64,000 bases of DNA. It comes from Muricoccus pecuniae. Its GTDB lineage: Bacteria > Pseudomonadota > Alphaproteobacteria > Acetobacterales > Acetobacteraceae. Shown here in pieces: positions 37,867 to 39,978 of the stretch. The notes under the pieces were generated by a model. It saw nothing but the letters and a program-made list of their open reading frames with translations. It made no database searches and was not told where the DNA came from. The position numbers and the translations under genes were made by a program. The stretch covers positions 1 through 64,000 of the forward strand of contig NZ_JACIJD010000020.1 of NCBI RefSeq assembly GCF_014199205.1, written 5' to 3'. Every line of letters begins with the position of its first letter. Position 1 is the first letter of the stretch.

Positions 37867-38011
37867 ATCCGCCGGGTTCCGTCGCCGTGCTCCGGGGAGC
37901 GCGGCGTCGGGGCGGCCCCTTTAGCCTGCCCTTCGCGGCCCGGCAAGCCCGAAGGCGCAGGCAACGCATCGGGCGTGACAGTTGCGCGCGGCTGTGGTGA
38001 TTCGGGGCGGA

Positions 38012-38890
38012 ATGGACGGACCCATCCAGGCCCCTGCCGAGGCCAGCACGCCCCCGCCTTTCCTGCTGGAGAGGCCGCCGCTCCAGGCCGCGCCGCTGGT
38101 CCTGGCCTCGCCGCATTCGGGGCGGCACTATCCCGCCTCCTTCCTCGCCGCCAGCCGGCTGGACCCGGTCTCGCTACGACGGTCGGAGGACGGATTCGTC
38201 GAGGAACTCTTCGCCGACGCGCCCTCGCACGGGGTGCCGCTGCTCTCGGCCACCTTCCCTCGCGTCTACTGCGACGCGAATCGCGAGGCCTGGGAGCTGG
38301 ACCCCGGCATGTTCGACGGGCCGCTGCCGGATTTCGTCAACAGCGCCTCCCCCCGCGTCGGCGCCGGGCTCGGCACGATCGCGCGCGTGGTGGCCAGCGG
38401 CGAGACGGTCTACCGCCGCCGCCTCTCCTTCAACGAGGCCGCCGACCGCATCCGGGCGCTCTGGGAACCCTATCACGCCGCCCTTTCCGGGCTGATCGGG
38501 GAGACGGTGCGCCGATTCGGCTGCTGCTTATTGATCGACTGCCATTCCATGCCCTCCCTCCCCGGCGAGCCCGGGCGGGCGGCGGACATGATCCTCGGCG
38601 ACGCCCACGGCACCTCGGCGGGCCCGCGCGCGACGCGCCTGCTGGAGGAGACGCTCGGCGGACTCGGCTACCGCCTCCGCCGGAACGATCCCTATGCCGG
38701 CGGCTACGTCACCCGGCATTACGGCCGTCCGCGGGAGGGCGTCCATGTGATCCAGCTCGAGATCGCGCGGAGCCTCTACATGGACGAGCGTCGGATCCAG
38801 CGCCTCCCCGGGCTGGAGGGCCTGCGCGCGGACATGGACCGGATGGTGCAGCGGCTGGCGGCCGAGGACTGGTCCTTCCTGAAGCCCTGA
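38012..38890 (+). CDS. N-formylglutamate amidohydrolase
   Basis: 292 residues from the ATG at 38012 (ribosome site ggggcgga); an upstream TTG and GTG are less likely. LVLASPHSGRHYP carries the zinc-binding histidine motif of the family, LLIDCHSMPSLPG the second, and GRPREGVHVIQLEIARSLYMDE the C-terminal block. The enzyme frees glutamate from N-formylglutamate, the last step of one histidine-degradation route, and homologues act in other formyl-amide pathways. No hut genes are adjacent. It is downstream of tRNA-Val on the opposite strand. Confidence 0.9.
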   Translation: MDGPIQAPAEASTPPPFLLERPPLQAAPLVLASPHSGRHYPASFLAASRLDPVSLRRSEDGFVEELFADAPSHGVPLLSATFPRVYCDANREAWELDPGMFDGPLPDFVNSASPRVGAGLGTIARVVASGETVYRRRLSFNEAADRIRALWEPYHAALSGLIGETVRRFGCCLLIDCHSMPSLPGEPGRAADMILGDAHGTSAGPRATRLLEETLGGLGYRLRRNDPYAGGYVTRHYGRPREGVHVIQLEIARSLYMDERRIQRLPGLEGLRADMDRMVQRLAAEDWSFLKP

Positions 38891-38917
38891 TCTCCCCCGC
38901 TGCCCGGGCATGCGGGC

Positions 38918-38947
38918 AAAAAAAGAGGCGGTGCCAGAGGCACCGCC
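38918..38947 (-). terminator. Rho-independent terminator of the candidate sRNA
   Basis: GGCGGTGCC-TCT-GGCACCGCC read on the minus strand, followed after two bases by seven T. The A-tract on the plus strand precedes the stem, so it works only for minus-strand transcription. Confidence 0.85.
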
Positions 38948-39005
38948 GAGTTTAGGGAGGAAACGTCCAAGAAAGACAACAACGCGACAACATCGCGTTG
39001 CTGCG
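38918..39005 (-). ncRNA. Candidate small RNA with anti-Shine-Dalgarno element
   Basis: A minus-strand unit lying between two plus-strand genes. It ends in a textbook terminator: 9-bp stem (38927-38935 with 38939-38947), three-base loop, then seven U (38918-38924). Upstream is an 8-bp hairpin (38980-38987 with 38993-39000, loop CAACA on the plus strand) and between the hairpins an unpaired UUUCCUCCCUAAA (38951-38963), which can pair with ribosome binding sites. A promoter-like TTGCGA-17-TACGTT (39040 to 39012) gives a start near 39005 and a transcript of about 88 bases. Exposed CCUCC elements are known in alphaproteobacterial trans-acting sRNAs such as AbcR and CcsR families; similarity to a specific family was not established. 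Confidence 0.65.
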
Positions 39006-39011
39006 ATGCAC

Positions 39012-39040
39012 AACGTAGGCTCCGCCCCAGGGTTTCGCAA
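39012..39040 (-). promoter_or_regulatory. Putative promoter of the candidate sRNA
   Basis: On the minus strand TTGCGA (39040-39035) and TACGTT (39017-39012) are separated by 17 bases. The -10 match is partial, so this is tentative; it places the start about seven bases further, near 39005. Confidence 0.4.
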
Positions 39041-39122
39041 GACCTTTCCCGCATTGCAGCATCACGGAAAGCGGATAGCTCCGGCACGGCTCTTCTGGCA
39101 CGGCTCTTGAGCAGGGAGGGGC

Positions 39123-39905
39123 ATGCGCCTCCTCGCCTTCCTCCTCCTCCTGCTCCCCGGCACCGTCCTCGCCCAGCCCTCGCCGATGGCGCTCTGCCGC
39201 GCCGCGATCGCCTCGGCAGAGCGTGAATACGGGCTTCCCGCCGGGCTCCTGGCCGCCATCGGCCGCGTCGAATCCGGCCGGCGCGATCCCGTGACGGGCG
39301 AGACCGGCCCCTATCCCTGGACGATGAACGCCGAGGGGGCCGGCAAATACTTCCCGGGCAAGGCGGAAGCGGTTGCCGAGGTGCGGCAGCTCCGGGCGGG
39401 GGGGATGCGGATCATCGATGTCGGCTGCATGCAGATCAACCTGCACCACCACCCCAACGCCTTCTCCTCGATCGAGGAGGCCTTCGATCCCATGGCCAAT
39501 GCCCGCTACGCCGCCCGCTTCCTCTCCGAGCTGAAGGCGGCGAGCGGGGACTGGATGACCGCCGCCGGCCACTACCACAGCCACACGCCGAGCCGCGCCG
39601 AGGCCTACCGCGCCCAGGTGGCGCTGCGCTGGCCCGAGGAGCAGCGCCAGGCCGGGAGCGCACCGGCCTGGCAGCCCGGCTGGTCCAACACGCCCCGCCC
39701 CCCTGCCATGGGCGCTCCCGTCACGGCCTCCCTGGCCGGGATGAGCATCCGTTCCGCTCCGCCGCCCACCATCATCCGCAGCCCGGGCGCGATGGCGGAA
39801 GGCGAGCGCGGGCGGGGCCTCGACGCCTACCGCGCCATGGCGATCCCCCTCGCCACCGGCCCCTCGCCCTCCCTCCTGCGTGGCCTGCCCGGGGTGCGGG
39901 GCTAA
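39123..39905 (+). CDS. Soluble lytic transglycosylase (SLT domain), secreted
   Basis: 260 residues with a signal peptide (MRLLAFLLLLLPGTVLAQ). The SLT fold is shown by REYGLPAGLLAAIGRVESG, in which the glutamate is the catalytic acid, and DVGCMQINLHHHPNAF and ARYAARFLSEL further on. These enzymes cleave the MurNAc-GlcNAc bond with formation of 1,6-anhydro-MurNAc, the substrate pathway of AnmK encoded nearby. The C-terminal third is proline- and serine-rich without a known domain. The stop codon falls inside a 25-bp tandem repeat. Confidence 0.92.
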   Translation: MRLLAFLLLLLPGTVLAQPSPMALCRAAIASAEREYGLPAGLLAAIGRVESGRRDPVTGETGPYPWTMNAEGAGKYFPGKAEAVAEVRQLRAGGMRIIDVGCMQINLHHHPNAFSSIEEAFDPMANARYAARFLSELKAASGDWMTAAGHYHSHTPSRAEAYRAQVALRWPEEQRQAGSAPAWQPGWSNTPRPPAMGAPVTASLAGMSIRSAPPPTIIRSPGAMAEGERGRGLDAYRAMAIPLATGPSPSLLRGLPGVRG

Positions 39906-39978
39906 GCCCGCACCCGGGGTGCGGGGCTAAGCCCGCACCCGGGGTGCGGGACTGAGCCCGTACCCGGGGTGCCGGGCC
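39891..39978. repeat. 25-bp tandem palindromic repeat, 3.5 copies
   Basis: Units begin at 39891, 39916 and 39941, with a partial fourth at 39966. The first two are identical, GGGGTGCGGGGCTAAGCCCG followed by CACCC; the third has two substitutions. Each unit can fold as GGGTGCGGG-GCTAAG-CCCGCACCC, a 9-bp hairpin. The array starts in the last codons of the transglycosylase and includes its TAA stop. Confidence 0.85.

Follow-up and report, generated by a model that had tools for sequence, protein, structure and literature searches.

Within the 64,000-nucleotide stretch of Muricoccus pecuniae DNA that we analyzed (contig NZ_JACIJD010000020.1; hereafter, the window), two plus-strand genes flank a minus-strand unit that looks like a complete small-RNA (sRNA) gene, as the preliminary description of this DNA had proposed. 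The predicted parts of the locus are as follows.

37982..38890, plus strand: FGase gene (N-formylglutamate amidohydrolase), convergent neighbour (PF05013, E 4e-72)
38918..39005, minus strand: MmgR/alpha-r8 (RF00519) sRNA, predicted 88 nt, 5′ end placed from the promoter
38918-38924, minus strand: U7, two bases past the terminator stem (sequence)
38927..38947, minus strand: terminator stem, 9 pairs, loop of 3 (terminator scan)
38954..38963, minus strand: 10-mer core UUUCCUCCCU, predicted anti-Shine-Dalgarno element (sequence)
38976..39004, minus strand: 5′ hairpin, 13 pairs (folding and terminator-like site scan)
39002..39010, minus strand: proximal PhaR-like dyad TGCATCGCA, spanning the predicted start site (motif fit)
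39012..39017, minus strand: −10-like element TACGTT (sequence)
39035..39040, minus strand: −35-like element TTGCGA (sequence)
39050..39058, minus strand: distal PhaR-like dyad TGCAATGCG, upstream of the −35 element (motif fit)
39123..39905, plus strand: transglycosylase-like gene (SLT), divergent neighbour (PF01464)

Among the best 80 of 537 FGase relatives, the closest proteins (86% identical) are those of Roseomonas rosea, Pararoseomonas indoligenes and Roseomonas sp. SXEYE001. A homologue of the SLT gene is present at 14 of 34 same-family loci, each about 3 kb or less in extent. By eye, a tandem repeat of about 25 bases in three copies, the third of which is altered, runs across the 3′ end of the SLT gene into the sequence beyond it (window positions ~39889-39963).

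Anatomy and family assignment of the sRNA

The intrinsic terminator is as first described, with a 9-bp stem at 38947-38927 (minus strand) and seven U residues at 38924-38918, and the TTGCGA-17-TACGTT promoter-like pair is found at 39040-39035 and 39017-39012. The transcript of about 88 bases calculated from the promoter distance is a prediction that fits this promoter sequence. Two structural details are revised here. The hairpin upstream of the core exists, with 13 pairs (39004-38976) rather than 8. In the minimum-energy fold of the 88-nt RNA a CCUCC-bearing stretch is unpaired, as claimed, but it is shorter: the UCC of UUUCC can pair with GGA in a 3-bp stem, and the unpaired stretch therefore starts after UCC and reads CUCCCUAAACUC. 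CCUCC is paired when all 123 nt are folded, a length that includes promoter DNA not expected in the transcript. The fold of the 88-nt RNA has an energy of −40.0 kcal/mol (z = −7.4), a stability reached by 0 of 200 shuffles, and positions 38400-39600 hold two terminator-like sites against a shuffle mean of 0.4, the second being the 5′ hairpin. A generic sigma-70 scan called zero promoters in the stretch holding the TTGCGA/TACGTT pair, yet all 69 of the 69 relatives examined have TTGC or TTGT between −88 and −66 relative to the core. In each of them a hexamer whose second base is A comes 16-19 nt after TTGC/TTGT, a weak test run without a control.

The covariance search that had been suggested as a check was run on the window with every Rfam family, the gathering threshold serving as cut-off. 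The sole match above that threshold at the sRNA position was RF00519 (suhB/MmgR, alpha-r8), covering the whole model at 38984-38912 on the minus strand (60.9 bits, E 4.4e-10; the RF00519 gathering score is 41 bits). The preliminary description could not assign the RNA to a named family; this match, together with the published FGase synteny, supplies one: PMC12559287 describes alpha-r8 RNAs as having the 10-mer UUUCCUCCCU and a terminator in common, with one copy by an FGase gene in most species. The window RNA combines its above-threshold score with a core UUUCCUCCCU between hairpin and terminator, single-stranded save for the UCC that may join the 3-bp stem, a rho-independent terminator and an adjoining FGase gene. 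We hold with high confidence that it is an FGase-linked (SisA/MmgR-type) alpha-r8 member and an anti-Shine-Dalgarno repressor.

The family is a known one and the sRNA gene is well supported; the added value of the present analysis lies in a conserved PhaR-type operator and in a likeness to phasin promoters. Family match, synteny, core, stems, −35 element and the two PhaR-like dyads can all be read directly from the sequence. A literature search that omits most subscription papers returned no paper on a suhB/mmgR small RNA in Acetobacteraceae, and the Roseomonas literature on small RNAs and Hfq, judged by titles and the starts of abstracts, contained none on the RNA described here. Some of the present findings may already be in Lagares et al. 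2016 and Ceizel Borella et al. 2018, which are said to treat the family phylogeny and the mmgR promoter.

Conservation in relatives

The preliminary description had made its reading depend on conservation in related genomes, and such conservation is found, in the stems as well as in the core. At 70 of 80 named loci TTTCCTCCC and a U-run lie on the strand opposite to FGase, at most 2.5 kb downstream of it, a proportion that favours RNA-linked orthologues because the query was built from the window FGase and eight FGases adjoining the RNA, with the best 80 of 537 relatives kept. Three of the 80 loci have fewer than 200 bases past FGase (contig ends), and the core is absent at 7 of the 77 testable ones. 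TTTCCTCCC is also present in 34 of 34 same-family loci (L001-L034) and 29 of 29 class-wide loci, both sets having been picked by Rfam score.

Of 200 same-family genomes, 167 have the RNA at E ≤ 0.001, a limit that takes in matches below the gathering cut-off, and 163 have it above that cut-off; of 115 genomes sampled across the class the numbers are 63 and 51. Thermus composti, an unrelated control genome, also gives a match below the cut-off. Some of the 80 FGase loci share genomes with the 200 (for example, L056 and L024), and the two sets are thus not independent. One FGase-sRNA locus of the Acetobacteraceae type lies in a Nostoc sp. record (NZ_JAIVFV010000206.1), possibly from a companion bacterium.

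A consensus structure was compiled from 70 RNAs (the window and 69 loci), 67 of them distinct; a locus whose contig ends 30 nt upstream of the core (L089) is counted among the 70 core-bearing FGase loci and omitted from the structure and −35 counts. TTCTTGGACGTTTCCTCCCT is invariant among the 67 distinct RNAs, its TTTCCTCCC part by construction, since the FGase-locus RNAs were located by TTTCCTCCC. Standard pairs fill 1096 of 1135 scored cells, 7 of 17 pairs show two-sided changes and 19 extra pair types occur, against 494-737 standard cells, 1-4 two-sided pairs and 8-11 types in a control with slid partners; the consensus was derived from the same sequences that were scored, which favours it in this comparison. 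The nine consensus pairs of the terminator have zero broken cells, and four of them show two-sided changes. In the 67 relatives the 5′ hairpin retains five consensus pairs, of which three show two-sided changes, with 292 of 331 cells standard; it is kept loosely, as all 39 broken cells fall within these five pairs.

PhaR-like dyads and the phasin promoters

Both dyads at the window promoter match the Sinorhizobium PhaR (AniA) motif YGCRNYGCR, the distal one lying one base away from a strict palindrome. PMC12542648 gives the S. meliloti PhaR motif as YGCRNYGCR in AT-rich arms and the R. sphaeroides site as CTGCNNNGCAG; PhaR of S. meliloti binds the mmgR promoter by EMSA, and phaP1 and phaP2 have two palindromes each. 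PhaR/AniA is reported to repress mmgR as well as to bind its promoter (PMC12542648; PMC8401924 / PMC7143759 / PMC5913331), and PhaR control of MmgR is already known from Sinorhizobium.

The arrangement recurs in relatives. At 66 of the 70 FGase loci a distal dyad starts between −99 and −85 relative to the core, and at 41 a proximal dyad starts between −51 and −38 (absent in 29); both are present at 38 loci and either one at 69, while the background, taken over 15 start positions elsewhere in the same FGase loci, is 435/17730 (2.5%). Among L001-L034, all 19 FGase-linked copies and 13 of the 17 unlinked ones have at least one dyad within 130 nt, versus 85 of 561 control tiles; the backgrounds of this, the FGase-locus and the class-wide dyad counts are mostly coding DNA. 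The unlinked count implies that the dyad typifies most family copies and not the FGase-linked ones alone. Across the class we took the best-scoring loci besides the window copy from the 63 positive genomes, 29 loci from 29 families, and found a dyad within 140 nt in 21 of them versus 55 of 522 tiles (8/29 without a dyad). FGase is nearby in 25 of the 29, one by a weak match (L162, 23.6% identity), and 18 of those 25 have the dyad. By eye, these class-wide dyads often sit at the putative start or in the −35/−10 spacer, as in S. meliloti.

The M. pecuniae genome has five RF00519 matches (L001-L005), four above the cut-off and the fifth at 35.7 bits, of which the window copy (L001) scores highest and is the only one with both dyads; L004 has the proximal dyad, L003 one in the distal place, L002 one just outside the distal place and L005 none. 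Differences among the five copies in the 5′ hairpin and in the sequence upstream suggest that the siblings are controlled separately, as is reported for Caulobacter. In another genome (G099, contig C4:165025-165614), three RF00519 copies stand in tandem at spacings of 247 and 269 bases, and each has a single PhaR-like dyad some 90 nt before its core.

Phasin genes provide a point of reference. A paired dyad pattern was used because plain CTGCNNNGCAG is too common alone, with 153 sites in the genome versus 82 for the reversed pattern. The 4.9 Mb genome has three instances of TGCRNYGCA-N33..55-TGCRNYGCA and none of its reversed form, each instance just upstream of one of four phasin genes found separately (PF09361); the fourth, at G000:C11:126193-126492, lacks the strict dyad pair. 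Since strict pairs lie only before phasin genes, they mark phasin promoters, as expected for PhaR. The sRNA promoter resembles these, with a slightly degenerate distal box and other spacing. At a phasin locus, a chrB-a RNA (RF03078, 68.4 bits; L051:2128-2213) lies on the opposite strand upstream of the phasin gene, back to back with its dyad promoter.

The genome has one phaR gene (G000:C9:39589-39771, PF07879, E 2.2e-31). Among the 200 same-family genomes PhaR and the RNA are both present in 158, the RNA only in 9, PhaR only in 1 and neither in 32; by genus the corresponding counts are 78, 6, 0 and 18. The table was compiled by eye, with totals of 167 and 159 that agree, and G094, G113, G182 and G190 are counted as PhaR-negative, being outside the listed positives. 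FGase is present in 199 of the 200, and the 32 genomes without PhaR and RNA measure 1.9 to 3.7 Mb. These double-negatives may reflect one or a few losses, so that the co-occurrence supports the PhaR link without being independent evidence for it; a handful of losses in small genomes may underlie it, and its p-values ignore relatedness.

As judged from the promoter motifs, PhaR probably controls the sRNA gene. A mechanism can be outlined by combining the dyads with what is known of SisA and MmgR. The RNA, about 88 nt long, would bind Hfq, and its CU-rich core would pair with Shine-Dalgarno regions to block the translation of several mRNAs. Without PHB, PhaR would repress the sRNA gene; PHB granules would titrate PhaR and release the sRNA gene along with the phasin genes, and the released RNA would then brake its targets. 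We lean toward the broader view that membership of the PhaR regulon is ancestral and class-wide for the FGase-linked alpha-r8 sRNA, that in Acetobacteraceae this sRNA has a phasin-like two-operator promoter, and that granules induce phasins and sRNA jointly in a storage-triggered feed-forward loop. If true, this sRNA family would be tied to carbon-storage sensing across Alphaproteobacteria via one PhaR operator, placed differently by lineage. The PhaR link predicts when the RNA is made and would narrow the target search to the time of granule formation.

Targets, alternatives and known systems

SisA represses mRNAs with Hfq, and direct pairing upstream of the start codon is described for one target (PMC12559287); from SisA we infer that the window RNA represses in trans. 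Phasins are not supported as direct targets. Core-leader duplex energies are ordinary: of 47 window genes, picked out by a simple rule on third-position G+C, 60, 26, 51 and 49% pair at least as strongly as the four respective phasin leaders. For S. meliloti, direct MmgR-phasin pairing has likewise not been identified (PMC12559287), and the phasin repression by MmgR may be an indirect effect. Exact complements of the core number 11 in the genome, four of them the sRNA genes, four just before start codons and three elsewhere; the reversed core pattern occurs five times, and seven complements outside the sRNAs versus five therefore show no target excess. The four complements before start codons precede reading frames of 246-364 aa which, read from their translations, appear to be an SDR, a 6-phosphogluconate-dehydrogenase-like protein, a TRAP-binding-protein-like protein and one without assignment.

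These data bear on a reading in which the RNA is an alpha-r8 sRNA with a SisA-like role in uptake and metabolism control, unconnected to PHB, and the dyads belong to another regulator or are functionless. Both the position of four of the seven non-sRNA complements just before start codons and the ordinary pairing of the phasin leaders are in keeping with it. So is the precedent in Caulobacter, where SisA repressed eight of ten reporters, including those for a TonB-dependent receptor and xylX, and where a shared upstream motif was not found for sisA-D (PMC12559287). We nevertheless consider it unlikely, given that the dyad fits the S. meliloti PhaR motif, that in this genome the strict pair lies only before phasin genes, and that PhaR and the sRNA co-occur; as to targets, the PHB-linked and SisA-like roles are mutually compatible.

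That the chief partner is another RNA, a sponge in place of mRNAs, has its model in CrfA, which binds SisA-D via the same 10-mer (PMC12559287). Here we rate it as quite improbable: the 11 exact complements in the genome include no candidate, a weak argument in that mismatches were disallowed, and the one core complement inspected as a sponge (L040) has neither a terminator-like site nor an RNA-family match when exact complements only are considered. That the element is a mere intergenic terminator is scarcely credible, for although it starts 28 bases past the FGase stop codon and its terminator is strong, the U-run lies on the minus strand and so does no service to FGase transcription, a terminator has no need for its core, 5′ hairpin, −35 element and dyad to be conserved, and four other places in the genome match the complete RNA model.

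Among known sRNAs, AbcR and CcsR carry a CU-rich anti-Shine-Dalgarno motif, as does the window RNA, and form families other than MmgR/alpha-r8; the only Rfam match here at the gathering threshold is RF00519.

SisA-D of Caulobacter crescentus, as described in PMC12559287, share with the window RNA the core UUUCCUCCCU, the terminator and the presence of several copies per genome, and SisA shares the FGase linkage. The hairpin upstream of the core is weak in SisA-D, whereas it has 13 pairs here, and the same text reports no shared upstream motif for sisA-D, in contrast to the PhaR-like dyads of the window promoter. SisA-D also have the sponge CrfA, with no counterpart identified here among exact core complements.

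The PhaR-repressed phaP1 and phaP2 of S. meliloti have two palindrome copies, as do the three dyad-bearing phasin promoters of this genome with their two dyads. Compared with those phasin promoters, the sRNA promoter drives a non-coding RNA, and its dyad starts are 48 bases apart rather than 56.

The likeness to S. meliloti MmgR extends over the Rfam match, the core, the terminator and the PhaR-type promoter dyad. The differences are a predicted length of 88 nt versus 77 for MmgR, the 13-bp 5′ hairpin, five RF00519 matches versus one in S. meliloti (PMC12559287), and two dyads, one upstream of the −35 element and one at the start site, versus a motif between −35 and −10 at mmgR.
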